In this document: positions 28,130 to 41,916 of the stretch, piece after piece
Layout of the letters: each line of letters starts with the position of its first letter
Position numbering within the stretch: the stretch's first letter is position 1
Assembly (NCBI RefSeq): GCF_000426545.1
Contig: NZ_KE384536.1
Coordinates: forward strand, 62,001-126,000
Direction: 5' to 3'
DNA length: 64,000 bases
Source: Paenibacillus massiliensis subsp. panacisoli DSM 21345
GTDB taxonomy: Bacteria > Bacillota > Bacilli > Paenibacillales > Paenibacillaceae
The notes under the pieces: generated by a model
Database searches by the model: none
Seen by the model: only the letters and a program-made list of their open reading frames with translations
Told to the model about the DNA's origin: nothing
Position numbers and translations under genes: made by a program

Positions 28130-29682
28130 TCCCTTTTCCCATTCAGATAACGCCTTCTATACTGGCTGGGCGAGAAGCCCATCAGCTTCTTGAATACCTT
28201 GGTAAAATAGCTGTGATCCGAGTAACCCACTCGGCTGCTGATCTCCGAGATAGAATGATCATCATTGCGCAGCATCGTAGCTGCTTTCTCAACCCTGACT
28301 TTATTCAAATATTCGCTAAAGCCCTCTTTATTATGAGCCGTGAAATAGCTGGACAGGTATGAAGGATTGAAATGAAAATGATGCGCTAGCGAAGTCAGAC
28401 TGAGCGGTTGATCGTAATGCTCTTCAATATACTCCAGCAGCTTCTTCATCCCACTGTTGCCATGCTGCTGCGCATCGGCGATCTCCCTCTTCACATCGTT
28501 CAGGAATGACTGTAGCAAGCCTTTCGCCTCATCCACATGAACTGCTTCATCAATGGACTTAAAATAAGAATACTTGGCGGATTCCAGCGCATGTGTATCA
28601 TATTCCAGATTACCCAATAGAATCGTAATATTGAATATGGTATTACTAATGAAGGATTTGAATTCGAAAGGTGGTGCTTCATAATGCTCTGACAGCATAT
28701 CCAGATGCTGATTCAGCAGCTCAAAGGCTCTATCGAATTGCCCCCGCTTCATCTCCTCAGTGAATAGCCTCAGATTAAAGGTTCCCGCCGGTTCCGTTGG
28801 AGATAGCATCTCCTCTTCCAGCAATATGTACTGGTCAGGGAAATAAAATTTGGCGTCAATCAGCTTCTTCAGACGGTTCTGGAACACTTCACCTACCTGA
28901 TTGATTGAATCAAACAGCGAGGTAACAGCCCATACCAGTGTCGGCGCATGCTCCGCTCGATCATCGGCAAGCTCCTTCAAAGAGTGGACTAGCTCCGGAT
29001 AAGCCTCCTGCTCAAGATTAGCCAGGTATATATCAAGTCCAGAGGTATTCTCTGCTGATTGATATACAGTACACATCTGAGAATCCAGTACGTCGACAAG
29101 CTGCAACCCCAGTTCGGAGCCAGAATGCTGCAAATAAGTGCGCCCCCCGAGTACACCAATAAGACAGAAGCTCGTGAATGCAAAGCTGTTCGCAGCCAGA
29201 GCAGAGGCCTCGTCCGGTTCATATCCAGATAACAGCTTGTCTACGATCCGTTCTACAGATATATTGCCATCCCCTGCTTGGGCGCCATATTGAATAGAGG
29301 GAATCTTACGCGCAGTGCGCTTTAATGTCTCCAGAAGCTCCTGGGTCTCCAGCTTAGGCTTCAAGATATAGTCAGCCACACCGCTCTGGAAGGTGGAACG
29401 TACATAGCTGAATTCACCATAACTGCTTAGTACAATGACCTCCATGTCCGGGTAACGCTGCTTCACGATTCGGGTCAGCTCTTCACCATCCAGGACAGGC
29501 ATTACAATATCTGTAATAATAATATGAGGTCGCAGCTGCTCGATCATCTCCAATGCCTCACGACCGTTGGAGGCCTCACCGACGATCTGGAAACCGTGGT
29601 CTTCCCAATCCAGATGGTGCTTGATTCCTTGTCTGACCAATATTTCATCATCCACAATAAGAATCTTACAAAGTTGTTCCAT
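28126..29682 (-). CDS. Response regulator with AraC DNA-binding domain, YesN type
   Basis: A 518-residue cytoplasmic regulator. The receiver domain begins CKILIVDDEILVRQG and has the phosphorylated aspartate in IIITDIVMPVLDG (Asp58) and the conserved lysine in YILKPK. A middle region of about 250 residues has no clear motif, as usual for this class. The C-terminus has the two AraC helix-turn-helix motifs (LSLTSLAHHFHFNPSYLSSYF and HSISEISSRVGYSDHSYFTKVFKK). I prefer the ATG at 29682 after GGAGGT. It overlaps the kinase gene (ATGA), so the kinase and regulator are made together. Confidence 0.94.
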   Translation of the reverse strand: MEQLCKILIVDDEILVRQGIKHHLDWEDHGFQIVGEASNGREALEMIEQLRPHIIITDIVMPVLDGEELTRIVKQRYPDMEVIVLSSYGEFSYVRSTFQSGVADYILKPKLETQELLETLKRTARKIPSIQYGAQAGDGNISVERIVDKLLSGYEPDEASALAANSFAFTSFCLIGVLGGRTYLQHSGSELGLQLVDVLDSQMCTVYQSAENTSGLDIYLANLEQEAYPELVHSLKELADDRAEHAPTLVWAVTSLFDSINQVGEVFQNRLKKLIDAKFYFPDQYILLEEEMLSPTEPAGTFNLRLFTEEMKRGQFDRAFELLNQHLDMLSEHYEAPPFEFKSFISNTIFNITILLGNLEYDTHALESAKYSYFKSIDEAVHVDEAKGLLQSFLNDVKREIADAQQHGNSGMKKLLEYIEEHYDQPLSLTSLAHHFHFNPSYLSSYFTAHNKEGFSEYLNKVRVEKAATMLRNDDHSISEISSRVGYSDHSYFTKVFKKLMGFSPSQYRRRYLNGKRE

Positions 29683-29768
29683 GACCACACCTCCAGCCCA
29701 TATTAGGCATCTCTATCTATTGTACCAAGATCAACGCCAACCATTGCAAGAAAATACATTCATTTTTA

Positions 29769-29782: not shown

Positions 29783-29952
29783 TTTAATGGTCACTAGACC
29801 TTATTGCACATGAATTTCGAAACTGAATCATATCTTACCATAGGTAACTAAATGGGGCAAAATCAAATTTTATTGCCCTTTAGCCATGCCTCCTACCATG
29901 AATTGTGACTCAAATCACATATTACTGCGCTACATCCCTTTATAATAACAAA

Positions 29953-29967
29953 TGATAATGATTCTCA
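29953..29967 (+). promoter_or_regulatory. Fur box
   Basis: TGATAATGATTCTCA matches the 7-1-7 Fur consensus TGATAATnATTATCA at all but one base. It begins six bases after a perfect TATAAT, so iron-loaded Fur would cover the transcription start. It predicts iron-repressed expression of the NEAT-SLH gene and possibly more of the island. Confidence 0.88.
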
Positions 29968-30037
29968 TTATTAAAAAACATACGCTGGCCGCAGCTTTGT
30001 CATCCAATACATAATCGGGCAAGGAAGGAGCTCACCA

Positions 30038-30055
30038 ATGGACGAGATCGTCTAG
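30038..30055 (+). other. Five-codon leader reading frame
   Basis: ATG-GAC-GAG-ATC-GTC-TAG is preceded by AAGGAAGGAG at ideal spacing, a better ribosome site than that of the following gene. It may be a translated leader peptide or just a relic; it is too short to judge by content. Confidence 0.35.
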
Positions 30056-30122
30056 CAGCAAGAGCCAGCAGCAAGAGTACATGAATGAATTATTTCAATT
30101 ATATCTAACAGGGGGACAGGGA

Positions 30123-32636
30123 ATGAACCAGAAGGTAAAAGCTTGGCTCAGCGGGTGTATGACAGCCATCTTGGCACTCGCAATGGTGCCTGCGCCCATA
30201 TACGGCGACAGCATCGTTGACGGTGCTGGAATTCAGGCTGCCGAAGCTAACGAGCAATTTTCACAAGAAGCTGCTAGTCCAGAGACATTCGAATCTCCCG
30301 TAGATTCTGTAAACTCAGCGACTTATGCAGTGAAAGATAACAAGGATTCCATGTCGTCCATAGCCTCCGTCACCGAGGTAACCTACACCGTTCCTGCAGA
30401 CGGGCTATACACGGTCGATGTGTATGGCTGGCACGCTACCAGAGACGCTGCTTCCATGATGGGTGGTGCGCTCGACAGAAAAGCCACGCTTAAGGTCGAG
30501 GACGGACAAATACTCGCTTCCATTAAGTTCGTGAAGACGAGCATCATGGGAATCGAGGTTACAGGCGACTCCATCAGCGAGGTGTGGCCTGAGCCAGAAG
30601 GAGCCACAGAGCTAGGGACTGGAGTCAAGGGTACGGTTCATCCCGAGGAACAAAGCCAGACTTACCAGTTCCCACTCAAGTCTGTGGAGATGCCGAAGCT
30701 CGCTATGTATGTCGGAGCGCCGCTGAATAGCGTTCAGCATATTCGTTTGAAATTCGACCTGAATACACTGACCCCGATACAAGATGATGAAGAGCCAGGA
30801 GAACAACCAGGAGAGAATCCTGCAGAGCCCGATCTTGAAGCCGTACCAGATAGACAGCTTCAAGCCGTTGAGGGCACCATTTCCATTGCTCCTGGGGATC
30901 TGGAGGGTCTGAACAAATCATCTACACTGGGACTGGTCTTCGATGATATCATCATCGTCTTCCCTGCCCGTCAGCTGCAAGAGTTTCTGGACCAAAATAA
31001 TGGTGCCAGACTTCAATTAAAATGGAGTCCCTCCACTAGCGAGACCCTAAAGGAGATTAAGGGTGCATTAAATAGCAAAGATCTCATTATTTCATCCTTT
31101 GACCTCCAATTGGAAGTCGTCAATCATGAGGAAGTTGTGACCCCAATTAGCGGGCTTGGCGGACGCACCAAGATTATAGCGTCCCTAAGTCAACAGCAGG
31201 CTTCCCAACTGTTCACATCAACTAGCAGCAAGCTCTACTATTACGATCCTGCTGCTGGAAGCCTGGAGGACATGAACGCCAGCTTTAACCAAGATGCACG
31301 GACCGCATCCTTCTATACGGATCATTTCAGCACCTATTCCATCGTTGGACATAATCCAAGTGGATCACAGGGCGGAGGCAAGCTTGATCCGGCTAATCTG
31401 CCGGATGGAGAATACACCATCAAGGGTAGAGCTCTGAAAGAATACTCCGATGAGTCATCCTTAAGCAATTCGCTGATCTCCAACCCAATTGGTATTGAGG
31501 TCAGAGGAGGTCATTTAACAGCCATTCTAGTCATGAAGGGCAGTGAAGCCTTCCCACTCAAGGAGGTTCAAGGCCTGTGGTACGAGAACAAGGAGAATGA
31601 ATTCGAGGAAATTCCACTGGAATATAACGCATCCAGCAATAGTATCGTGGCGAGATTCTCCTTAACAAGCTTGATGACAGCCCAGAAGATGCAAGTCTCG
31701 GTACCTAATATTCTTCCAGATAAGCCAATCTTCCGTCTGGTATTCGACCTGTCCTCTCTTCAGGAGGGGGCCAAGTCCAATATGCCTGACAGCTCTGCGG
31801 TGACATCATACTTGATTAAAGCGACAGCAGATCAAGGCGGGAAGATCACTCCGGAAGGCGAAGTAAGCGTCGCTATCCATGAGAACAAGAGCTTTGAGAT
31901 TACAGCCGACGAGGGCTACCTTCTCAAGGATGTGCTCGTGAATGACAAATCTGTCGGAGCAGTGAGTAGCTATACCTTCGAAAAAGTAACCAGCAACGCT
32001 ACCATTCATGCCGTGTTTGAGAAGAAGACTGCAGAAGTGAATGAAGCAGAGGCAACCACCGAAGAAGGTGCAAGCCCGCTCACATCCTCCTTCGTCGATA
32101 CGCAGGGTCACTGGGCCGAGAGCTATATCCAGCTTGTAGTGTCCAAAGGGTTATTCAAGGGAACTGACGAACAACATTTCAGCCCGGATGCCACGTTATC
32201 TCGAGGCATGCTACTTACGCTGTTAGGGCGGCTTCAGGGGCCAAGTGCCGAGAGCTATACCTATACAGCTTTCAAGGATGTGCCTTTGAATCAGTACTAC
32301 ACGACGTATATTACCTGGGCAGTGGATAAAGGCATCGTGCAAGGGGCCGGTAACGGTCTATTCCACCCTGATCAAGCGATTACCCGTCAGGAGCTTGCAG
32401 TGATCATGGCCAGCTATCTGAAGCATGCCAAGCTGCAGCCTTCTCTAACAGAGCAGTCTCCTGTATTCAGCGATCAGAAGGAAATATCGACTTGGGCACA
32501 GGAAAGTGCCTTGCTGACCGTGAGATCTGGACTGCTGGAGACGAATGATCAAGGTCAATTCTCTCCAAAGGCTACTCTAAGCAGAGCTGAGGCAGCTAAG
32601 CTTCTGGCGCTTCTACTTGAACTGACAGGACAATAA
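30123..32636 (+). CDS. NEAT and SLH domain surface protein (heme capture)
   Basis: An 837-residue secreted protein that probably takes heme from host or environmental hemoproteins and is held on the wall through S-layer homology domains. Order: signal peptide (1-28), NEAT-like domain 1 (about 82-220), a Pro/Glu linker and an unclassified strand-rich region ending DHFSTYSIVGH (226-410), NEAT domain 2 (about 420-545, LPDGEYTIKGRALKEYSD onward), an InlB-like bacterial repeat (562-636), and three SLH repeats (655-837; FVDTQGHWAESYI, FKDVPLNQYYTTYI, FSDQKEISTWAQ). Neither NEAT domain has the usual heme-ligating YxxxY near its last strand. The ATG at 30123 follows GGGGGACAGGG. A Fur box lies 160 bases upstream. 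Confidence 0.88.
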   Translation: MNQKVKAWLSGCMTAILALAMVPAPIYGDSIVDGAGIQAAEANEQFSQEAASPETFESPVDSVNSATYAVKDNKDSMSSIASVTEVTYTVPADGLYTVDVYGWHATRDAASMMGGALDRKATLKVEDGQILASIKFVKTSIMGIEVTGDSISEVWPEPEGATELGTGVKGTVHPEEQSQTYQFPLKSVEMPKLAMYVGAPLNSVQHIRLKFDLNTLTPIQDDEEPGEQPGENPAEPDLEAVPDRQLQAVEGTISIAPGDLEGLNKSSTLGLVFDDIIIVFPARQLQEFLDQNNGARLQLKWSPSTSETLKEIKGALNSKDLIISSFDLQLEVVNHEEVVTPISGLGGRTKIIASLSQQQASQLFTSTSSKLYYYDPAAGSLEDMNASFNQDARTASFYTDHFSTYSIVGHNPSGSQGGGKLDPANLPDGEYTIKGRALKEYSDESSLSNSLISNPIGIEVRGGHLTAILVMKGSEAFPLKEVQGLWYENKENEFEEIPLEYNASSNSIVARFSLTSLMTAQKMQVSVPNILPDKPIFRLVFDLSSLQEGAKSNMPDSSAVTSYLIKATADQGGKITPEGEVSVAIHENKSFEITADEGYLLKDVLVNDKSVGAVSSYTFEKVTSNATIHAVFEKKTAEVNEAEATTEEGASPLTSSFVDTQGHWAESYIQLVVSKGLFKGTDEQHFSPDATLSRGMLLTLLGRLQGPSAESYTYTAFKDVPLNQYYTTYITWAVDKGIVQGAGNGLFHPDQAITRQELAVIMASYLKHAKLQPSLTEQSPVFSDQKEISTWAQESALLTVRSGLLETNDQGQFSPKATLSRAEAAKLLALLLELTGQ

Positions 32637-32760
32637 GCTTGACGGTAAGAGCAATGTCTATCATCGTACTTTCACAGAAGACGGAATCGTCTGGCTGAAG
32701 CTTTTCTTGCGATAATCGAATGGTCCAGCTCCGCTGAAAATTATAAATTCTATTATCTTC

Positions 32761-32795
32761 AAAAAGGCCATTCCGAATATGGGATGGCCCCTTTT
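32761..32795 (+). terminator. Terminator after the first NEAT-SLH gene
   Basis: GGCCATTCC and GGGATGGCC pair across a five- to six-base loop, flanked by A5 and followed by CCTTTTC. It lies 125 bases after the stop and separates this gene from the ABC pair. Confidence 0.7.
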
Positions 32796-32801
32796 CACAC
32801 T

Positions 32802-32845
32802 AATGGAGTTAGTTGCTTGAACTCCATTTTACCCTTTTGTATATG
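32802..32845 (+). promoter_or_regulatory. Hairpin overlapping a probable sigma-A promoter
   Basis: AATGGAGTT and AACTCCATT (32802-32810 and 32820-32828) form a 9-base stem. A TTGAAC at 32817-32822 is followed after exactly 17 bases by TATATG at 32840-32845, a good -35/-10 pair. The -35 lies in the stem's right arm. This would give the ABC genes their own start. Confidence 0.5.
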
Positions 32846-32884
32846 TTCATTCTATGAATTCAATCCTAATAGGAGGTGTACACT

Positions 32885-35068
32885 GTGAAGGCGATCTATG
32901 TCGGGCTTGGCTTTTTCTTTTTTTGTCTCGGCGCGGTAGGTGCTGTGCTGCCATTACTTCCTACCACCCCCTTCTTACTATTATCCGCTTTCTTTTTCGC
33001 CAAGGGCTCTGACCGGTTCAACCGTTGGTTCACATCTACCAAGCTGTACAAAAATCATCTGGAGAACTTCCTCCAGACTCGTTCCATGAAGCTGCGTGCC
33101 AAGATTGTAACTGTGGGCTTCGCATCCTGCATGCTCGCGATTCCCTTCATCCTTACCGATTCGATATGGGTACGTGGCGTGATTCTACTGATCGTCGTGT
33201 TCAAATATTACTACTTCATATTCCAGATTAAGACGGAGCGACCGCAGCAAAACACAACAGCACAGGCTGCTTCGGAAGCAGCCCCTGCGCCTAAGCGCTC
33301 CAAAATGATGGATGGCCGATTGCTGTCCATGGTCGCGCATTCACGCAAATACATAGCACTTGGCGTATTCACGAACTGGATCGGTCTCCTGGCTAACATT
33401 TGCGCGATCATAACCGTCGCTACCATGCTGCAATACGCTTGGGACGGGAGATTGTCGAGCAGCTTCACGTTTACGGCCTGCCTCATCATTGCCGGGGCAA
33501 TCGCCATTCGTCTGGTCTGCGCGTATATCTCCAGCCTGCTCTCATGGCGGGCCTCCAATAATGCCAAGCACACCCTGCGCGCCAGACTCTATAGCAAGCT
33601 TCTCCGATTAGGATCTGGTTACACAGAGCAGACCTCCACCGCCGGAGCTGTTCAGGTCGCTGTAGAGGGAGTTGAGCAGCTGGAGCATTATTTTGGACGT
33701 TACATGCCACAGCTGTTCTATAGTCTGCTTGCCCCTCTTACGCTGTTCGTCACATTATCGTTCATTAGCTTCAAGTCAGCACTGATTCTATTGATCTGTG
33801 TACCGCTCATCCCCATGTCAATCATTGCTATTATGAAATTCGCCAAAAAGTTGTTCAGCAAGTATTGGGGCAGCTACGTCAACCTTGGCAACAGCTTCCT
33901 GGAGAACCTTCAGGGACTGACAACCCTGAAAATCTATGCAGCTGATGAGCAGCGACATGAGGAGATGAATACGTCTGCGGAGAACTTCCGGCAGATCACC
34001 ATGCGCGTACTACGGATGCAGCTGAACTCGGTAGCTCTCATGGACATAATTGCTTTTGGCGGAGCTGGAATCGGGGTCATCATTGCAGCCACTGAATTCG
34101 CAGCTGGACGGATTCCATTATGGGGAGCCCTGACCGTCATGCTGCTTTCTGCGGAATTCTTCATTCCGCTGCGACTCTTAGGATCATACTTCCATATCGC
34201 CATGAACGGCATGGCAGCCAGTGACAAGATTTTCGAGCTGCTCGCTCTTGAAGAGCGGACATCAGGGAATGCAGAAATCCGTGACGGAAGCATTCGTATG
34301 GAGCAACTAAGCTTCTCTTATGCTGACCAAAAATCTTCAGATCAGGATCAGACCAAGAACACGACGCTTCGTGATGTCAGTCTCAACATTCCGCAAGGAA
34401 GCCTGACAGCGCTAGTCGGTAAGTCCGGATCAGGCAAAAGCACACTGGCTGCACTAATGATGGGCTCGGCAAGCGGCTATGAAGGACGTCTGCTTGTGGG
34501 TGGTAGTGAAATGAGAGACATCTCTGAGCGTACAGTCATGCAGCGAATTACTTTGGTGAGTCTGGGCAGCTATATCTTCAAGGGCACGGTAGAAGACAAT
34601 CTGCGGATGGGAGCCCCTGCTGCAACTGAAGACGCCATGCTTCAGGCACTGGCCCAAGTGAATCTGAGAGACTTCGTTCTATCCCAGGGTGGACTTGGTT
34701 ACGAGCTTGAGGAGCAGGGGGCCAATCTCTCAGGTGGGCAACGTCAACGGCTTGCTCTGGCCCGAGCTCTGCTGTATGACAGTGAAGTGTATATATTCGA
34801 TGAAGCTACCTCCAACATTGATGTAGAAAGTGAAGAGAAGATCATGGAGGTTATTCACAATCTGGTGGGCCGCAAAACCGTCATCCTGATCTCACATCGA
34901 CTAGCAAATGTAGTTCGTGCTGATTGCATTCATGTCCTCTCTGAGGGGCAGCTGGTAGAGAGCGGCACACATGAAGAGCTGCTGCGACAACATGGTCATT
35001 ATGCAGCACTGTTCAACAGCCAGCAGGAAATCGAGCAATATGTCTCAGGAGGAATGGTGTATGCGTAG
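32885..35068 (+). CDS. DUF454 (YbaN-like) domain fused to a CydD-type ABC exporter
   Basis: A 727-residue membrane protein made of two normally separate units. Residues 1-115 are a DUF454/YbaN domain (GLGFFFFCLGAVGAVLPLLP, TTPFLLLSAFFFAKGSDRFN, then the LLIVVFKYYYFIF helix). After a linker of about 30 residues rich in Ala and Gln comes a six-helix ABC exporter membrane domain (about 155-440) and an ATPase with Walker A LVGKSGSGKST, signature LSGGQRQRLALARALL and Walker B VYIFDEAT. The GTG at 32885 has AGGAGG eight bases upstream. It overlaps the next ABC gene by eight bases, so the two form a heterodimer. Resemblance is to CydDC exporters of thiols and heme-linked processes. The heme island context suggests heme or porphyrin handling. 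Confidence 0.88.
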   Translation: MKAIYVGLGFFFFCLGAVGAVLPLLPTTPFLLLSAFFFAKGSDRFNRWFTSTKLYKNHLENFLQTRSMKLRAKIVTVGFASCMLAIPFILTDSIWVRGVILLIVVFKYYYFIFQIKTERPQQNTTAQAASEAAPAPKRSKMMDGRLLSMVAHSRKYIALGVFTNWIGLLANICAIITVATMLQYAWDGRLSSSFTFTACLIIAGAIAIRLVCAYISSLLSWRASNNAKHTLRARLYSKLLRLGSGYTEQTSTAGAVQVAVEGVEQLEHYFGRYMPQLFYSLLAPLTLFVTLSFISFKSALILLICVPLIPMSIIAIMKFAKKLFSKYWGSYVNLGNSFLENLQGLTTLKIYAADEQRHEEMNTSAENFRQITMRVLRMQLNSVALMDIIAFGGAGIGVIIAATEFAAGRIPLWGALTVMLLSAEFFIPLRLLGSYFHIAMNGMAASDKIFELLALEERTSGNAEIRDGSIRMEQLSFSYADQKSSDQDQTKNTTLRDVSLNIPQGSLTALVGKSGSGKSTLAALMMGSASGYEGRLLVGGSEMRDISERTVMQRITLVSLGSYIFKGTVEDNLRMGAPAATEDAMLQALAQVNLRDFVLSQGGLGYELEEQGANLSGGQRQRLALARALLYDSEVYIFDEATSNIDVESEEKIMEVIHNLVGRKTVILISHRLANVVRADCIHVLSEGQLVESGTHEELLRQHGHYAALFNSQQEIEQYVSGGMVYA

Positions 35069-36719
35069 AAGTGGTCTGAACATTATGTCGAGACTCATAG
35101 TATTGCTTGGGCCACTGATTCCCGTCATGCTGGTTACCGTAGTACTTGGGGTACTAGGCTTTCTCGTAGCTATAGCCATTACGGTACTAGGCGGCTATCT
35201 GTTGCTCTATGGCATCGGACTTGGTGACGGCTCCCTGCAGCCTGGCTATATCATGCTCGCTATAGCGGCATGCGCTGTTCTGCGCGGGCTGCTGCGATAT
35301 GGTGAACAGCTGAGCGGCCACTACATTGCCTTCAAGCTGCTCGCGGTGCTGAGAGACAAAGTCTTTCATGCCTTGCGCAGACTTGCGCCAGCCAAGCTTG
35401 AAGGGCGGGATAAGGGCAATCTGATTGCCGTCATCACTACCGATATTGAGCTGCTTGAAGTATTTTACGCGCATACGATTGCTCCCATCGTGATTGGAAT
35501 CACGACATCGTTGATCATGACCTTATTCATCGCCACCTATCACAGTACACTGGCATGGATTGCTGTCGCTGCCTATATCACGGTCGGACTGATTATTCCT
35601 GTCGTGACCTCAAGAATGGCCAAACGCCAGGGCATGGAGTACCGGAATAGCTTCGGCGTACTTAGCAGCTACTTCCTGGAAAGTCTGCGTGGCATGAAGG
35701 AATCCATTCAATATGACCAGGGAGAGGCTCGGATGCAGCGCATCACCGCTATGACTGAGGACCTGGAGAAGAAGCAAAAAACACTCAAGAAGCATGAGGG
35801 TGTTACACGTGCACTCTCCGAGTCAGCCGTGCTCGGCTTCTCCTTCATTCTGCTGCTCGTGGCTCTTCAGCTTCAATCAACAGGAGCGCTGGGTTATAGT
35901 GGTGTGCTAATACCGACCATTGCCCTCTTCAGCTCCTTCGGCCCTGTCGTGGCGCTCAGCCAGCTGTCGAACAATCTGCTGCAGACCTTTGCCAGCGGAG
36001 AACGGCTGCTTCAGCTATTGGATGAGGAAGAGACTCTTAAAGAGGTAACCACCGGAAGCGAGCCACCTTTCACTGGCGCGAAATGGGATCGCATCAACTT
36101 CACGTATGACGGAGCTCCCGTGCTGAATGACATTCATATTCCTGTGAATCGCAGCCGCATCCTGGGGATTACAGGGAAAAGCGGTTCAGGCAAATCTACG
36201 CTGCTCAAGCTGTTAATGCGCTTCTACGATCCTCAATCCGGCTCCGTCCAGATCGCGGGCCAAGATATTCGTACAGTGAATACGGCAGCTCTACGAAATT
36301 TGCAAAGCTATGTCACACAGGATACCTTCCTGTTCAATGATACGATCGAGGCCAACATCCGTATCGGAAGGGCAAACGCGACTCCCGAACAGATCGAAGC
36401 CGCAGCCCGCAAAGCATCTGTACATGACTTCATCATGTCCCTACCAGAAGGCTATCAGACGAAGGTTGGAGAGCTTGGAGAGCGCTTGTCTGGTGGAGAG
36501 AAGCAACGAATTGGTCTGGCACGTGCCTTCGTTCGTGAGGCACCACTCATGCTGCTGGATGAGCCAACCAGTAATCTGGATGGCTTCAACGAAGCTGTCA
36601 TCCTCCGAGCCCTGAACCAGGAGCGTGCAGGGAGGACCATTGTCCTCGTCTCCCACCGTGCTTCTACAATGAGCATTGCTGACGAGGTACATCATATTGA
36701 TAATGGAAGAGTGTCCTAA
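35061..36719 (+). CDS. CydC-type ABC exporter, partner of the DUF454-ABC protein
   Basis: A 552-residue exporter half with six transmembrane helices (residues about 10-310) and an ATPase carrying Walker A ITGKSGSGKSTLLKLL, a Q-loop YVTQDTFLFNDTIEANI, signature LSGGEKQRIGLARAFV and Walker B LMLLDEPTSNLD with the D-loop. The ATG at 35061 has AGGAGG eight bases before it, inside the last codons of the upstream ABC gene; longer frames would run into that gene. A CydC-like second half to match the CydD-like first. The substrate is not evident. Its stop is followed after three bases by the YgbA-like gene. Confidence 0.9.
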   Translation: MRRSGLNIMSRLIVLLGPLIPVMLVTVVLGVLGFLVAIAITVLGGYLLLYGIGLGDGSLQPGYIMLAIAACAVLRGLLRYGEQLSGHYIAFKLLAVLRDKVFHALRRLAPAKLEGRDKGNLIAVITTDIELLEVFYAHTIAPIVIGITTSLIMTLFIATYHSTLAWIAVAAYITVGLIIPVVTSRMAKRQGMEYRNSFGVLSSYFLESLRGMKESIQYDQGEARMQRITAMTEDLEKKQKTLKKHEGVTRALSESAVLGFSFILLLVALQLQSTGALGYSGVLIPTIALFSSFGPVVALSQLSNNLLQTFASGERLLQLLDEEETLKEVTTGSEPPFTGAKWDRINFTYDGAPVLNDIHIPVNRSRILGITGKSGSGKSTLLKLLMRFYDPQSGSVQIAGQDIRTVNTAALRNLQSYVTQDTFLFNDTIEANIRIGRANATPEQIEAAARKASVHDFIMSLPEGYQTKVGELGERLSGGEKQRIGLARAFVREAPLMLLDEPTSNLDGFNEAVILRALNQERAGRTIVLVSHRASTMSIADEVHHIDNGRVS

Positions 36720-36722
36720 ATT

Positions 36723-37070
36723 ATGGGTAATGGGAATAATCGTATCGCATCTGAGAAATACATTGTAGAGAAGATGATTATTGTCTTTTGCCGCGGACAC
36801 AGACATTCGAGTAACCGTTCCAGTCTATGTCCCGAGTGCAACGAGTTGCTGAGTTACGCCCACAAGCGTCTCGATCAATGCCGATTCGGAGAATCCAAGA
36901 GCTTTTGCGAGCAATGTCCCATTCATTGCTACTCACGCCAGATGAGAGCCCGGATCAAGGAGGTTATGCGTTATTCAGGGCCGCGGATGTTGCTCTACCA
37001 TCCAGGTCTAGCCCTCAAGCACATGGCCTCAAGCACCTTGTACCGACTCAGACAACGAAGGAGCATATGA
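36723..37070 (+). CDS. YgbA-like nitrous-oxide-stimulated-promoter family protein
   Basis: A 115-residue cytoplasmic protein that fits the YgbA family, linked in enterobacteria to nitrosative stress. The conserved core is present: MIIVFCRGHRH, LCPECNELLSYAHKRLDQC, FGESKSFCEQCPIHCY and MRYSGPRMLLYHP. Seven cysteines (23, 36, 39, 53, 62, 65, 69) are spaced like a metal or iron-sulfur site. The ATG lies three bases after the ABC gene's stop with a weak ribosome site, so it is probably translated by coupling. Finding it inside a heme operon suggests a role in iron or heme redox chemistry, which is inference. Confidence 0.82.
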   Translation: MGNGNNRIASEKYIVEKMIIVFCRGHRHSSNRSSLCPECNELLSYAHKRLDQCRFGESKSFCEQCPIHCYSRQMRARIKEVMRYSGPRMLLYHPGLALKHMASSTLYRLRQRRSI

Positions 37071-37098
37071 AGACAATTGCTACGTGCTGGGGAACCAT

Positions 37099-37178
37099 GA
37101 ACGGACAACTAAGCTAAACAACGAATAACCGAGCCATGCAACGAATAATTAAGCCACGTAACAAAAAACTGAGCTACG
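37099..37178 (+). repeat. Four imperfect 20-bp tandem repeats
   Basis: Units start at 37099, 37119, 37139 and 37159, each of the form nAACgnAnAAcynAGCyAnn; units two and three are nearly identical in their first ten bases (CAACGAATAA). They lie in the leader of the second NEAT-SLH gene and end 27 bases before its start. Confidence 0.65.
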
Positions 37179-37204
37179 CACACAATCGAAAGGAGAATAC
37201 AAAC

Positions 37205-38443
37205 ATGTTCACAAGCCATAGAAGGAACACGCGCTGGGGTGCCACGATCATCTGCTCTTTGGCAGCAACGCTCATATGGTCGGGTATTGCAGCACCAACG
37301 ACCACGGCAATTGCATCGGCATCTAATGCCCAAGCGGTGACCTCATTGGAGGACGGGCTCTACACCATCTCTGCTCAAGCACTCAAGGAGAATAGCGACG
37401 ATGTATCCATGAGCAACGCACTGATCTCCAGAACCGTACTGCAGATCGAGAATGGACAGCCCTCCGCTATCCTTCTTCTGCAGGGGAATGCCTATATTCC
37501 GCTAAAAGAGGTAAAAGGGCTGTGGTATCAGGATGCTACAGGCAGCTTCAAGGAGATTCCACTGCTATTTAACGAGAGTACCAATTCGATTGAAGCTGTC
37601 GTCCCTCTGCAAAGCATAGAAAAGCCGCAGCGCATGCAGGTCTCCGTCCCCTTCATCATGGGAGAGGAGAAGCCCACATTCCGCCTGAGCCTGGATACGA
37701 CCTCACTGCAGACAAAGGCTGCAACCACTGAAAAGACTAATGAGAAGGCTAATGATAAGGAAGCGTCTAATGCAGCAGCTACCGTTGAGACTGGTAAAGG
37801 GGCTGTGAAAGAGGCTGTACATGAGAATGTAAAAGAAACGGGTAAAGAAGCTCCCGTAGCGACCAGCTCACAGGTATTCTCAGATATGCAAGGACATTGG
37901 GCCCAACAGGAGGTCGCCGTAGTCACCTTTCTGGGGTTGTTCAACGGTACCGATGCGACACACTTCAGCCCCGAGCAATCCGTCACGCGTGGCATGCTGG
38001 CTACTGTGCTCGGCAGACACGCAGGTGTCGAGTCTACCTCAACACCTGCCTCTTCCTTTACCGATGTACCTGCCGGGAAGTATTATACGAGCTATGTATC
38101 CTGGGCTGCTGAGCGTGGGCTCGTCAAAGGCACAGGTCAGGGCTTGTTTGCACCTGAACGTCCTGTCACCCGCGAGGAAGCAGCTGTGATTATCGCGGCC
38201 TATATGAAGGATACGGGAATCTCGTTGACTGCGCAGGCTGAGGGGCAGACTCGGCCTGTGTATGAGGATGACTCTGAGATCAGCTCCTGGGCAACAACAC
38301 AGGTACAACAGCTGCTACAGGCCGGGATCATGACCAGCAAGGATGATCAGCATTTTGCACCGAAGACACCAGCTACTCGTGCCGAGATCGCCAGCATGCT
38401 AACCAAGGGGTTGAACCTTGACTCCACTGGAAAGCAGGAATAA
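37205..38443 (+). CDS. Second NEAT and SLH domain surface protein
   Basis: A 412-residue secreted protein, a shorter paralogue of the first NEAT-SLH protein. Signal peptide to about residue 40 (AIASA), one NEAT domain (about 48-163) and a Lys/Glu/Ala-rich linker (165-220), then three SLH repeats (VFSDMQGHWAQQE, FTDVPAGKYYTSYVSW, and SEISSWATTQVQQLL). The NEAT domain is closely related to NEAT 2 of the first protein (shared ALKE-S-D, KEVKGLWY versus KEVQGLWY, MQVSVP, KPxFRL), and likewise lacks YxxxY. AAAGGAG precedes the ATG at 37205. The stop overlaps closely with the next gene (three bases apart). It probably passes heme on from, or works in parallel with, the larger protein. Confidence 0.88.
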   Translation: MFTSHRRNTRWGATIICSLAATLIWSGIAAPTTTAIASASNAQAVTSLEDGLYTISAQALKENSDDVSMSNALISRTVLQIENGQPSAILLLQGNAYIPLKEVKGLWYQDATGSFKEIPLLFNESTNSIEAVVPLQSIEKPQRMQVSVPFIMGEEKPTFRLSLDTTSLQTKAATTEKTNEKANDKEASNAAATVETGKGAVKEAVHENVKETGKEAPVATSSQVFSDMQGHWAQQEVAVVTFLGLFNGTDATHFSPEQSVTRGMLATVLGRHAGVESTSTPASSFTDVPAGKYYTSYVSWAAERGLVKGTGQGLFAPERPVTREEAAVIIAAYMKDTGISLTAQAEGQTRPVYEDDSEISSWATTQVQQLLQAGIMTSKDDQHFAPKTPATRAEIASMLTKGLNLDSTGKQE

Positions 38444-38446
38444 CGG

Positions 38447-39439
38447 ATGTCCAGGCGATATTTCACTTCAATCGTCACAGTAGGCTTGGCCTGCATGCTG
38501 CTTGTGGTGATAGGTCCGCTATTCGGAGGTACAGCGACTGCCGCTGGGCTGGATAAAGGACTATACCTTTTGGACAACAAGACTTATTACACGAATCCAG
38601 ACACGGGCAAGGTAGATGATGGCGGTGACACCTCCATTGGTAACGGCATGAGCCGGAATGTCACCTACTCCAAGTCCCTGCTGGAGGTTCGAGACGGCAA
38701 GTACCTGGTCACGCTGAGAATGAAGATGATCTCGTATATTAGCAAGGTTACTATTCATGTTCAGAAGTCCAAGGGGGACGGGGATGCTTACTCTCCTGTA
38801 TCGTTCAAAATTACCGGAGAGAACAAGGCAGAGGATACCCGCGACTATCAATTCGAGGTCAGTGACCCGACCCTGTTCATCAAGCCAGTCATCTATGTGG
38901 AGCCTATGGGGCGTGATGTCGTGTATTTCGTCAGCCTGCTTGAGGATTCAGCTCAGCCAGACAATGGGTCCTTCCAAGCCTATAACCAGACTAGCAAGCA
39001 GCAAACGTCCGCGGCTGAGCCAGATCTACCGCAAGGAATCAGTATAGAGTCGAGCGACAATTCGGTTAGTCACAACAAGTCCGCTGCCTCAACTTCTGGT
39101 TCAACGGCTAACACCAAATCTGGGAATAGCGGTACCCCTCAGGGGGACTCATCTTCGGAACACAAGACTGACAAGAATGACAAGGCTGGTAAAACAGATA
39201 AAGCAGGAGACGCGTCTTCCAAGCAAAAGCAAAATGCGACTCCAGCACTTCCAAGTGAAGGGAAGCAATCGACAGCCGGTACAGTCAACTCAGCCAATAC
39301 AGCCAGTCAAGCTAATAAGGAAAAGCAATCCGTACCAACGGCGGCCAGCGCTTCCTCCTCAACATCAGGCGCAGAAGCTCAGGACTCCACTGATCTGACT
39401 GCTAACAAAGCTCACTCCTCTGCCCAGCAAGCTTTCTGA
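38447..39439 (+). CDS. Shp-like heme-binding surface protein (N-terminal part, frameshifted before its anchor)
   Basis: A 330-residue reading frame with a signal peptide (1-32), then a domain of about 150 residues matching the streptococcal Shp heme-carrier fold: LDKGLYLLDNKTYYTNPDTG, GNGMSRNVTYSKSLLEVRDG and YVEPMGRDVVYFVSLL. Shp uses two methionines as heme ligands, and the GMSRN and PMGRD methionines are candidates here. A long Ser/Thr/Ala/Lys-rich stalk follows (from about 185). The frame stops at 39437-39439, and the missing C-terminal stalk and membrane anchor continue in another frame (39399-39812). In Shp the anchor is needed to hold the carrier at the membrane, so this product would be secreted unless the shift is corrected. 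Confidence 0.8.
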   Translation: MSRRYFTSIVTVGLACMLLVVIGPLFGGTATAAGLDKGLYLLDNKTYYTNPDTGKVDDGGDTSIGNGMSRNVTYSKSLLEVRDGKYLVTLRMKMISYISKVTIHVQKSKGDGDAYSPVSFKITGENKAEDTRDYQFEVSDPTLFIKPVIYVEPMGRDVVYFVSLLEDSAQPDNGSFQAYNQTSKQQTSAAEPDLPQGISIESSDNSVSHNKSAASTSGSTANTKSGNSGTPQGDSSSEHKTDKNDKAGKTDKAGDASSKQKQNATPALPSEGKQSTAGTVNSANTASQANKEKQSVPTAASASSSTSGAEAQDSTDLTANKAHSSAQQAF

Positions 39440-39812
39440 GCAACAGGCCCCTGAGCAACATACTGAGAGCGGAGACACGAATCCGGCAGGTGAACCCAGC
39501 TCATCTGCCGAGCAGATGGATGCAGCCGCCAAAGACGGAACTGTCGCCAACGAGCAGGCAACTGAAGGAGTAGCAGCACCCATAGCGACAGATATCATTG
39601 CATCCGGGGCAGACGTTAGCGATGATGAAGTAGGAATCGTAGAGTTCGATCAGAACGGTGCCCGTCAGAATGAGCGTGCTGCCTCTGCAACGGAGAAAGA
39701 AGGTAGTGGAAGTGGATCACTGCTCTCCATGCCCGCACTGCTACTAGTACTGCTTGCAGTATGTGCAGCAGGCCTGTATTTAATGAAGTTAATGAAGCTG
39801 CGGAAGAAGTAA
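39399..39812 (+). pseudogene. Out-of-frame C-terminal stalk and membrane anchor of the Shp-like protein
   Basis: This frame is open from 39399 (after a stop at 39396) and overlaps the end of the Shp-like frame. It encodes a stalk of the same composition (SEQQAPEQHTESGDTNP, AEQMDAAAKDGTVANE) and ends in a transmembrane helix (LLSMPALLLVLLAVCAAGLYL in two adjacent parts) with a basic tail KLMKLRKK. No ribosome binding site lies before its internal ATG at 39516, so it is a detached piece of the upstream gene. One base too many or too few between 39399 and 39437 would explain it. A sequencing error, a fixed mutation or phase variation are all possible. Confidence 0.75.
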
Positions 39813-39899
39813 CAGACTGGGAATTCAGATGATTTATCTTGTGAGATACAGCTAGAAAAAAACTGGAGCGGAGTTGTCCAGCTAAGGAGTCGGAATGAC

Positions 39900-40793
39900 G
39901 TGTTGAAGAAACGAATAACCCTCTTCCTGTGTGCCGCCATGTTGGCGATGCTTCCCGCCTGTGCAGTACGCGCCAAAACAGATTCAAATGCTGAAAGTAC
40001 ACAACAGACGCGGATTATTAGCACCTCAGCGGCATTATGTATGATACTGGATAAGCTGGAGCTTGACCTGGTAGGCGTACCGGACACTGCCTTCACTCTG
40101 CCTGAGCGCTACAAGGACTCTGTTCAGATTGGGCAGCCCATGACACCCGATCTGGAGATCATTAAGTCCCTACGCCCGACAGATGTGATCAGCCCAAACA
40201 CCCTGCAATATGATCTGAAGCCCCAATACGAAGCCATCCAAGTACCCGCTACATTCGTGAATCTGGGAAGTGTCGAGGGTATGCTGAAGAGCACCGAGCA
40301 GCTCGGGGTAAAGTATGATCGCACGAAGCAGGCTGAGGTGCTACGACAGCAATTTGAGGCGTACATGGCAGAGCTGCGCACAGATATCGCAGATCAAGCC
40401 AAACCAAAGGTGCTCATACTAATGGGTCTTCCAGGCTCGTATATGGTTGCTACTGAAAAATCCTATGCCGGCAATCTGGTCAAGCTGGCTGGTGGAGATA
40501 ATGTGCTGAAGGATCAGGAAGAGGCATTGTTAACACTCAACACGGAGGCCCTCTCCAAGCTTGATCCGGATATTATTCTGCGCACCTCCCATGCCATGCC
40601 AGAAATGGTGCAAGAGATGTTCCGTGAGGAATTTGCCACAAGTGATATCTGGAAGCATTTTAGAGCCGTGCAGGCTGGTAACGTATACGATCTGAGCAAT
40701 GAACGCTTCGGCATGAGCGCCAACCTGAACTACCAGGAAGCGCTGGATGAATTGAGAACGATATTCTACGGAGAGCCTGCGCATGAATCATAG
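39900..40793 (+). CDS. isdE: Heme-binding lipoprotein of an ABC importer (IsdE/HtsA type)
   Basis: A 297-residue membrane-anchored substrate-binding protein that takes heme from the surface carriers and delivers it to the permease. The lipobox is LAMLPAC (Cys21). The class III fold has two lobes joined by a long helix. Both heme ligands known for IsdE (Met78 and His229) have counterparts here: Met81 in IGQPMTPDLEIIKSLRPT and His231 in LRTSHAMPEMVQEMF. The GTG at 39900 has AAGGAG ten bases upstream. The permease gene overlaps its end by 11 bases. Confidence 0.92.
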   Translation: MLKKRITLFLCAAMLAMLPACAVRAKTDSNAESTQQTRIISTSAALCMILDKLELDLVGVPDTAFTLPERYKDSVQIGQPMTPDLEIIKSLRPTDVISPNTLQYDLKPQYEAIQVPATFVNLGSVEGMLKSTEQLGVKYDRTKQAEVLRQQFEAYMAELRTDIADQAKPKVLILMGLPGSYMVATEKSYAGNLVKLAGGDNVLKDQEEALLTLNTEALSKLDPDIILRTSHAMPEMVQEMFREEFATSDIWKHFRAVQAGNVYDLSNERFGMSANLNYQEALDELRTIFYGEPAHES

Positions 40794-41775
40794 TCTCACA
40801 CTGAAAAGGAAACTTGCCCACTGCATTGCGCTGACTGTACTACTTATTATTCTGGTGGGCATAGCCGTGAATCTGGGTAGCATCCAGGTGACGTATTCGG
40901 AGCTGTTCAGGGGACTATTCATCGAATATAACGAGATGGTAGAGATTATATATGATCTGCGCTTTCCGCGAATCATCATCTCCCTGCTGTCTGGAGCCGC
41001 ATTAGCGGTATCTGGCGTACTGCTGCAGGCCGTTATGAAGAATCCCTTGGCTGATCCCGGTATTATAGGGATTTCCAGTGGTGCGAATCTAACAGCCGTG
41101 ATCGTGATTATGTGGTTCCCTCAACTGTACTTTCTCAGCCCCCTGTTCGCCTTTATCGGCGGGGTGGCTGCCTGCGCTCTCGTCTTCCTCTTCTCCTGGC
41201 GTGGTGGCTTTCAGGCGCTGCAGATTATTTTGACTGGTATTGCAATCCATGCCGTCTTCACTGGATTACTGGATGCGCTAGGGTATATGACCGGGGGCAA
41301 ACAGAGCATCGTCATGTCGATGGTGCGATCCAATATTTCCATGAAGACCTGGGATGATGTCCGAACGCTGGCTTATTATGTGCCCCCTGGCTTGTTATTA
41401 GCATTCTTCACGATTCGTTATTGTAATCTGCTGGGGCTGGAAGAGAAAGTCATTCGTAATCTCGGCGTACGTGTAGCCAGTGTTAGACTGTGTGTATCAG
41501 CCGTAGCTGTGCTGCTGGCGAGCATCTCCACAGCTGTGGCGGGTACGATGGCCTTCGTCGGCCTGATTGCCCCACATATTGCTCGCCTGTTGGTAGGCTC
41601 TAACCATAAGTGGCTCATTCCATTCTCGATCCTACTTGGGAGCTTCACCGTACTGCTGGCTGATACGCTTGGCCGTTATGTAGCAAGACCTTATGAAATT
41701 CCCGCTTCCATTGTTATGGCTGTTCTGGGTGGTCCCTTCTTCATCTTCCTGCTCTGGAGGAAGACCCGGAGATAA
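40783..41775 (+). CDS. FecCD-type heme ABC transporter permease
   Basis: A 330-residue permease with about ten transmembrane helices of the BtuC/FecCD fold. Family landmarks include LRFPRIIISLLSGAALAVSGVLLQ in the first third, NPLADPGIIGISSGANL, and the cytoplasmic coupling region GTMAFVGLIAPHIARLLVG. It would import heme from the IsdE-like lipoprotein whose gene it overlaps. The matching ATPase gene, normally next, is absent: only a terminator and non-coding sequence follow, so an ATPase encoded elsewhere must be used. Confidence 0.93.
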   Translation: MNHSLTLKRKLAHCIALTVLLIILVGIAVNLGSIQVTYSELFRGLFIEYNEMVEIIYDLRFPRIIISLLSGAALAVSGVLLQAVMKNPLADPGIIGISSGANLTAVIVIMWFPQLYFLSPLFAFIGGVAACALVFLFSWRGGFQALQIILTGIAIHAVFTGLLDALGYMTGGKQSIVMSMVRSNISMKTWDDVRTLAYYVPPGLLLAFFTIRYCNLLGLEEKVIRNLGVRVASVRLCVSAVAVLLASISTAVAGTMAFVGLIAPHIARLLVGSNHKWLIPFSILLGSFTVLLADTLGRYVARPYEIPASIVMAVLGGPFFIFLLWRKTRR

Positions 41776-41873
41776 AGGGCAGAAATACGAAACTGCTGGC
41801 ACTTTTAATGTTTTGAACAAAACAATCTGAAGCAGTTCATCCCTTCGTTCGTTTGGCTCGATACGTCAAAATT

Positions 41874-41916
41874 AAAAGGATCATCGTTTCTCGTCGAGAA
41901 GCGGCGATCCTTTTTT
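41874..41916 (+). terminator. Terminator of the heme island
   Basis: AAAAGGATC (41874-41882) pairs with GATCCTTTT (41906-41914), with an inner TTCTC/GAGAA helix in the loop and six Ts after it. It ends the permease transcript. Confidence 0.8.

Follow-up and report, generated by a model that had tools for sequence, protein, structure and literature searches.

Why should a locus for heme uptake carry an exporter? This question is raised by a heme island of Paenibacillus massiliensis subsp. panacisoli DSM 21345, which occupies positions 29904-41914 of the window, i.e. of the whole stretch of 64,000 nucleotides that was analysed (contig C10:62001-126000 of a 6.3-Mb genome; positions are window coordinates). 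All parts of the island are on the forward strand in the order (i) a protein with two NEAT and three SLH domains, (ii) a CydD-like exporter half fused to DUF454, (iii) a CydC-like half, (iv) a YgbA family protein, (v) a second protein with one NEAT and three SLH domains, (vi) Shp, (vii) an IsdE-type lipoprotein and (viii) a FecCD permease. Judging from its sequence, we suggest that the island is probably a heme-uptake cassette of the Shp type that has its own dedicated heme exporter of the CydDC type and is controlled by Fur and an Fnr-type regulator. Shp cassettes, NEAT-SLH proteins and extra ATP-binding cassette (ABC) exporters in heme operons are already in print separately; in the open-licence literature, as far as its accessible text goes, we found no paper that joins Shp cassette, NEAT-SLH proteins and exporter or that treats the exporter as a family. 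As the most useful new results we regard the separate clade of exporters in which the heme ligands are kept, the promoter with Fur and Fnr-type sites, and the finding that NEAT domains of Shp loci widely lack the tyrosine motif.

The exporter pair and its putative heme-coordinating histidines

The exporter halves score 391.7 bits (CydD; cut-off 435) and 319.3 bits (CydC; cut-off 329.05) with the NCBIfam models and are termed CydDC-like because both fall under these cut-offs. In an exporter tree (quick method, with the Shimodaira-Hasegawa-like approximate likelihood ratio test, SH-aLRT, as sole support measure and a midpoint root), the CydD proteins of heme loci form one group of 20 rows (SH-aLRT 99) beside canonical CydD (99), and the CydC proteins of heme loci likewise form their own group of 20, apart from the cydAB-linked rows. 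Besides the island, the rows comprised pairs from 14 of the 36 Shp loci with CydDC-like genes described below (picked for spread), two isd-linked and three mtl-linked pairs from Paenibacillales, two cydA-linked pairs and six other exporter rows from the same genome, and E. coli CydDC. The streptococcal rows, which are the siaDE-position pairs of S. castoreus and S. phocae in a tree without S. pyogenes sequences, are long branches within the heme-locus groups. The island pair is not linked to cydAB; given that two further CydDC pairs adjoin cydA elsewhere in the genome, the island pair would be dispensable for a cytochrome-bd role, and it was rejected as a candidate for the cytochrome-bd CydDC of this genome.

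According to excerpts of a recent structural study, heme in E. coli CydDC is bound by CydC His85 on one side and CydD His312 on the other, and heme is argued to be the substrate of this exporter (PMC10374445). His117 of the island CydC aligns with His85, and His440 of the island CydD aligns with His312. Each of these two histidines is kept in all 20 heme-locus rows and in 3/3 canonical rows; among the six other exporter rows of the genome, none has a histidine at position 312 and one has a histidine at position 85, with one gap. Because both heme-binding histidines are retained, heme is the likeliest substrate of the island exporter, and export is the presumed direction. We consider it unlikely that the pair instead exports a thiol reductant (cysteine or glutathione) that would reduce ferric heme outside the cell and in that way free it from hemoproteins or between methionine-type carriers. 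Thiol export has long been proposed for CydDC, the NCBIfam name of the CydDC models is 'thiol reductant ABC exporter', and methionine ligands may accept ferrous as well as ferric heme (excerpts of PMC12796733); the histidines conserved in 20/20 rows and the structural argument for heme in E. coli speak against this function.

The exporter is also found near heme uptake genes without Shp. Among 392 genomes of the order, a search with the N-terminal half of DUF454-CydD gave 19 matches, 17 to CydD itself and two (G219 and G293) to DUF454 alone. NEAT genes are present in 16 of the 17 genomes with heme-type CydD and in 65 of the 375 others (Fisher p 4e-11 uncorrected for kinship; ~0.001 with near relatives roughly collapsed, 5/6), the sole exception being G178, in which the CydD and CydC genes are in pieces. 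In G386, G390 and G295 the pair is directly behind an isd operon. Fusions of DUF454 with CydD are found in the window, in P. massiliensis, in Paenibacillus sp. YN15 and in most of the stand-alone exporter loci considered below (one long frame), and DUF454 is a separate gene in G386 and in clostridial loci. In G293, DUF454 and YgbA genes are adjacent with no CydDC (C32:18024-18730), an arrangement that hints at a functional pair. A single chain of 1151 aa matches both CydD and CydC in locus L100 (uncultured Clostridiales).

Carriers, importer and the spread of Shp loci

The features of the island are collected in Table 1. The island is bordered by a divergent two-component gene pair (26357-29688; by eye, on the reverse strand) on one side and by an unrelated gene at 42164 on the other. 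In the nearest named genome found, Paenibacillus massiliensis DSM 16942, the whole island is present in the same order with ~92-99% protein identity. A preliminary description of the window had named two NEAT-SLH proteins, a Shp-like domain and a FecCD permease on one strand together with a CydDC-like exporter and a YgbA protein, all of which were recovered by Pfam, the exporter also scoring with the NCBIfam models, under their cut-offs. Its IsdE-like lipoprotein with both heme ligands was borne out as well (376.1 bits with the NCBIfam IsdE equivalog; cut-off 298.65), as was SLH in place of sortase anchoring: NEAT with three SLH domains occurs twice, and no sortase gene is present in the island by open reading frame list and Pfam. 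New with respect to that description are the DUF454-CydD fusion, the CRP/Fnr-type palindrome, the Shp frame split, the lack of an importer ATPase, and the terminator and inter-gene hairpin.

Table 1. Coordinates of the predicted features of the heme island in the window
Feature	Positions	Strand	Remarks
CRP/Fnr-type palindrome TGTGA-CTCAAA-TCACA (TGTGA-N6-TCACA)	29904..29919	+	centre 29911.5; ~41.5 bases before inferred transcript start
TATAAT, -10 element	29941..29946	+	
Fur box TGATAATGATTCTCA	29953..29967	+	covers inferred transcript start
NEAT-SLH protein 1	30081..32636	+	851 aa; NEAT x2 and SLH x3 (Pfam); likely true start 30123 (by eye)
NEAT A	30399-30770	+	domain of NEAT-SLH protein 1
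NEAT B	31404-31760	+	domain of NEAT-SLH protein 1
SLH x3 of NEAT-SLH protein 1	32088-32615	+	
RNA hairpin between genes 1 and 2	32766..32789	+	-16.4 kcal/mol, z -3.33; possible partial terminator
DUF454-CydD fusion	32876..35068	+	730 aa; ABC exporter by Pfam
CydC-like exporter half	34971..36719	+	ABC exporter by Pfam; likely true start 35061, overlapping CydD stop (by eye)
YgbA family (PF11756, YgbA_NO)	36723..37070	+	115 aa; Pfam
NEAT-SLH protein 2	37136..38443	+	NEAT x1 and SLH x3 (Pfam)
NEAT C	37352-37708	+	domain of NEAT-SLH protein 2; Met in both ligand regions
SLH x3 of NEAT-SLH protein 2	37874-38413	+	
Shp frame without membrane tail	38447..39439	+	330 aa; HemeBinding_Shp, Pfam 1.5e-44
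Shp heme-binding domain	38555-38980	+	ligand methionines Met68, Met154
Shp membrane tail, other frame	39516..39812	+	98 aa; one continuous frame in P. massiliensis
IsdE-type heme lipoprotein	39900..40793	+	Peripla_BP_2 (Pfam); lipobox by eye; Met81, His231
FecCD-type heme permease, IsdF-like	40783..41775	+	FecCD, Pfam 2.6e-84
Rho-independent terminator, island end	41874..41914	+	-22.9 kcal/mol, z -6.0; strong; also in terminator scan

HemeBinding_Shp matches the island Shp with 151.8 bits (Pfam cut-off 26.4), and both axial methionines are retained (Met68 and Met154, which we take to correspond to Met66 and Met153 of the reference Shp). Likewise, the IsdE-type lipoprotein keeps both ligand positions, presumably M78/H229 in the S. 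aureus numbering. By Pfam, no IsdG-type heme oxygenase is among the island proteins, the rest of the genome not having been searched for one. No Shr receptor is present in the island; its place is held by the NEAT-SLH proteins, in which Pfam finds only NEAT, SLH and one weak repeat match. The genome has three pyruvyl-transferase genes, the products of which could modify the wall polymer. A second isd locus of the same genome (L009/L010, G000:C8:224-236 kb; hereafter the C8 locus) has 10 NEAT domains, IsdE, permease, ATPase and a sortase (by Pfam), as well as NPxTG-type tails by eye; a cydA-like gene (C8:211626-212891) is ~13 kb ahead of its first NEAT domain.

Isd NEAT domains bind heme via a tyrosine in a YxxxY motif. 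This motif is found in none of the three island NEAT domains, in five of ten in the C8 locus and, by a text rule applied to the last strand region, in 0 of 73 NEAT domains of near full length that the Shp loci described below encode outside Shp itself (eight of the 73 being counted twice, as L014 = L062 and L015 = L066; a looser cut gave 111 domains, not all classified). Several of the Shp-locus NEAT domains have a methionine in the last strand and first helix, e.g. PKVEPMGDEP in Peptoniphilus and VPRGMGE in Pelotomaculum; a tally of methionine in 58/73 by a loose text rule was wrong for NEAT A and was not used. Methionine-like last strands are also seen in some NEAT domains of the C8 isd protein and are therefore not exclusive to Shp loci. 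NEAT C retains both ligand methionines, and its predicted structure (mean predicted local distance difference test score, pLDDT, 89.6) has a NEAT-domain fold. The solved structures closest to the model are of the tyrosine type (IsdX2-N5, Z 17.4; IsdX1, 17.3; Hbp2-N2, 16.9), Shp has Z 9.6, and Shr NEAT domains are not among the structures listed; the Shr/Shp-like structural match hoped for in NEAT C was not obtained, and the fold leaves the ligand type undecided.

Shp (PF11545) is present in 3 of 149 relatives, this genome included, and in 1 of 398 in a class-wide draw that was too thin, the one being this genome. Using an alignment of three Paenibacillus Shp domains and the 2Q7A stretch as query against named genomes, we identified 61 Shp loci, mostly in Clostridia and Peptoniphilus relatives (2 Paenibacillus, 2 Streptococcus, many Peptoniphilus and Lachnospiraceae, Geosporobacter, Anaerovirgula, Pelotomaculum and others); in this set Peptoniphilus is over-represented, some records are incomplete, and Shp is present by construction. 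Scored with hidden Markov models built from the window, YN15 and the C8 locus, the 61 loci have an importer core of IsdE (58), permease (57) and ATPase (54), a further NEAT protein (55) and a NEAT-SLH protein (23), and they contain at least one (36) or at least two (32) CydDC-like genes, DUF454 (31) and YgbA (5). Pfam agrees for DUF454 in 5/5 loci scanned and for YgbA in 2/2. Canonical cytochrome-bd CydDC do not exceed 232 and stay under the threshold of 250, and in a control of 418,867 bases in 20 other stretches the same threshold was passed only by the pairs for which the stretches had been fetched and by the island's own. Across the bacteria compared, this import-plus-export set looks like a widespread, little-studied package.

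With the same core in 61 named loci, NEAT-SLH proteins in 23 and CydDC-like genes in 36 of them, it is not supported that the mixture of Isd and Shp parts named in the preliminary description is peculiar to this island, and the island as a unique Isd/Shp chimera was rejected. As for gene order, the island order recurs in P. massiliensis, and the order Shp, IsdE-type lipoprotein, permease, usually followed by the ATPase, is common to the 61 loci. YgbA was discarded as a weak marker of the module, being present in 82/392 genomes of the order and in only the five Shp loci mentioned. In eight of the 61 loci (L067-L072, L074 and L075) Shp is itself fused to SLH, an alternative way of SLH anchoring. 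A flavodoxin-like gene is downstream of the heme importer in a Peptoniphilus locus (L080:13511-14026), and a gene of an iron-dependent repressor family is upstream of a Lachnospiraceae Shp locus (L090:4471-5412).

The island promoter and a model for heme traffic

The Fur box TGATAATGATTCTCA differs from TGATAATNATTATCA at one of the 14 specified bases, agrees at the other 13 and is on the promoter, in agreement with the near-consensus box of the preliminary description; a scan allowing up to two mismatches gave two matches in the window (0.35 expected), of which this is the better one. Fur as the sole regulator was set aside after a second, CRP/Fnr-type site had been found at the promoter. This palindrome is the sole exact match to TGTGA-N6-TCACA in the window (0.10 expected; present in 10/100 shuffles) and is centred at about -41.5, which is the class II activator distance. 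There is no good -35 element at the promoter, nor did the promoter scan list a sigma-70 promoter there; a weak -35 is expected of an activator-dependent promoter. Palindrome and Fur box are spaced by 49 bases in the window and by 42-43 bases at stand-alone exporter loci, and in 10/10 mtl-linked loci of the latter type, all near relatives of each other, CGTGA-N6-TCACA (one mismatch) precedes a perfect Fur box.

Genome-wide, there are 19 exact palindromes and 7 matches to the reversed pattern. Seven of the 16 palindromes examined are within ~200 bases upstream of nirB, adhE, pflB, a flavohemoglobin gene, nrdD and cydA (two), which are of the usual Fnr set. Beside adhE, the same genome encodes a member of the CRP/Fnr family in which a cysteine cluster is seen by eye at the C-terminus, and this protein is a candidate for the Fnr that would act at the island palindrome. 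In Geosporobacter and Anaerovirgula a CRP/Fnr-family gene adjoins the DUF454-CydDC-YgbA genes. In L063 (5127-5810) and L065 (4143-4829) such a gene is located between the NEAT genes and a divergent DUF454-CydDC-YgbA operon.

Combining gene content, ligand residues and promoter sites, we suggest a model in which (i) the NEAT-SLH proteins, held non-covalently at the wall through SLH, would display or capture heme, (ii) heme would pass from NEAT-SLH to Shp, to the IsdE-type lipoprotein and through the FecCD permease into the cell, (iii) the importer would draw its energy from an ATPase whose gene lies outside the island, probably the one from the isd locus on contig C8, and (iv) DUF454-CydD/CydC would move heme from the cytoplasm or the inner leaflet to the outer face. 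The heme relay of the preliminary description, with NEAT-SLH proteins, Shp, IsdE and permease as its members, is supported as the most likely function. The exporter would most likely provide cytochromes outside the cytoplasm with scavenged heme and prevent overload. We infer control by both regulators: Fur would repress the promoter when iron is plentiful and the Fnr-type regulator would activate it at low oxygen, a condition under which heme synthesis is restricted and the cell needs cytochromes, so that the island is probably switched by iron and by lack of oxygen.

Another function of the pair would be that of a detoxification valve, which expels excess imported heme and has no part in cytochrome assembly. 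The pair is co-located with importers, Streptococcus included, and S. pyogenes to our knowledge lacks a respiratory chain, in line with such a valve. Heme exporters such as PefCD are described for other Gram-positive bacteria in excerpts of PMC4220732. However, a Fur box implies expression in scarcity rather than excess, an Fnr-type site implies low oxygen, and no regulator is found by Pfam among the nine island proteins; we therefore regard a valve alone as rather unlikely and favor a combined role in cytochrome supply and overload protection.

Objections and comparison with known systems

Several findings weigh against a working cassette with a dedicated exporter. Within the island, Shp is in two frames of 330 and 98 aa (38447-39812), as opposed to one 450-aa frame in P. 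massiliensis; the difference spares the heme-binding part, severs the membrane tail, and may be a true recent change or an assembly fault. No importer ATPase gene is present in the island or in that of P. massiliensis, and one is found in YN15. NEAT A has leucine in place of the second ligand methionine and NEAT B in place of both, so that these two domains may bind no heme; given these losses, only NEAT C, Shp and IsdE look ligand-complete. Thus the carriers nearest the membrane look heme-competent, and the outermost protein may serve another purpose, e.g. hemoprotein binding. In P. massiliensis this protein has 988 aa with NEAT A twice, as compared to 851 aa and one copy here, which would be a recent domain gain or loss. 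The arginine contacts to the heme propionates of E. coli CydC are altered in the exporter (Q or H for R81 and H for R136 in 20/20 heme-locus rows; R, K or H for R77), and as these arginines are not kept, the pocket is likely somewhat different. The hairpin past gene 1, absent from the terminator-scan list, could reduce read-through and may uncouple the later genes from the island promoter.

The Shp frame difference, the missing ATPase and the lost NEAT ligands would all be explained if the window copy were decaying and relayed heme no longer, with the C8 locus doing the work. Yet all frames other than Shp are open and 93-99% identical to those of P. massiliensis, in which Shp is whole, the frame difference could be an assembly error, neither regulator site is disrupted, and Shp, IsdE, CydD and CydC retain their ligand residues. 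Decay thus appears improbable to us.

Further objections arise from comparison among loci and from the promoter. At the threshold used, 25/61 Shp loci have no CydDC-like gene; among the 34 full-length loci, 25 have at least one and nine have none. Ten genomes from the genus of this strain have the pair on its own behind a mannitol operon, apart from NEAT genes (the mtlD and mtlA types were checked by Pfam in one such locus). The position of about -41.5 depends on an inferred transcript start, taken 7 bases past TATAAT; 9/16 palindromes examined, the island's own included, precede no textbook anaerobic gene; and in the YN15 island TATAAT and a Fur box are present without the palindrome. The palindrome could accordingly be a chance match, with Fur alone in control, as its absence from YN15 and its expected frequency in the window and in shuffles would allow; in addition, the window and P. 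massiliensis are too similar in sequence for an alignment to reveal constraint, and the ten loci with paired sites are near relatives with one mismatch each. Against chance stand the position of the palindrome and the near-identical site plus Fur box in 10/10 loci that carry the module in another genome context. We consider a chance match distinctly improbable and retain Fur together with an Fnr-type regulator.

Heme uptake, from a host or from the environment, is usually told as one-way traffic to degradation. As a tentative extension, which is possible and goes well beyond the island itself, we suggest that many Bacillota have an import-export couple in which a distinct CydDC subfamily (with DUF454, sometimes YgbA) would be the standing partner of Shp/NEAT importers and return scavenged heme across the membrane for cytochrome assembly under joint control by iron and oxygen; the methionine-ligated NEAT-Shp relay with which it works would be much older than the streptococci and extend well beyond them. 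The recurrent exporter with kept histidines and, in Paenibacillus, an oxygen-type site allow a test of whether scavenged heme serves intact, as a cofactor that has to be returned to the outside. They also provide a candidate role for streptococcal siaD/siaE and C. perfringens chtC2/chtC3, which are named without function in the accessible parts of the papers concerned. Shr and Shp use methionines, and methionine-ligated NEAT domains have lately been stated, in excerpts of the literature, to be peculiar to S. pyogenes; this claim is called into question.

Among known systems, the Isd systems of S. aureus, B. anthracis and the C8 locus share with the island NEAT proteins, an IsdE-type lipoprotein and a FecCD permease, whereas the island NEAT domains lack YxxxY and the island lacks sortase and ATPase genes. 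BslK of B. anthracis, which is reported (Tarlovsky 2010) to deliver heme to IsdC, resembles the protein at 37136-38443 in having one NEAT and three SLH domains; in the island, however, Shp is the likely acceptor and the NEAT domain has no tyrosine motif. Excerpts of PMC4143258 describe BslK as a heme protein with this domain composition. The Shr-Shp-HtsABC/sia system of S. pyogenes is similar with respect to a Shp with two ligand methionines, a lipoprotein, a permease and, further on, an ABC exporter pair (siaD and siaE, listed as putative ABC transporters in the accessible text of PMC6593403). The island differs from the sia operon in lacking a Shr-type receptor, an importer ATPase and SiaFGH, and in having SLH-anchored NEAT proteins, the DUF454 fusion, YgbA, and Fur and Fnr-type sites. 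The Cht locus of C. perfringens parallels the island in NEAT proteins, an importer followed by two permease/ATPase fusions, and a Fur box; as partially available, PMC5026354 gives chtC2 and chtC3 as the two fusions past the importer, with a Fur box and one transcript. This likeness is by description, the sequences not having been compared, and the Cht locus uses sortase whereas the island uses SLH. Finally, CydDC of cytochrome bd is likewise a heterodimeric ABC exporter with both heme-coordinating histidines, whereas the island pair is in a separate clade, under both NCBIfam cut-offs and without cydAB linkage, and has DUF454 fused or adjacent.

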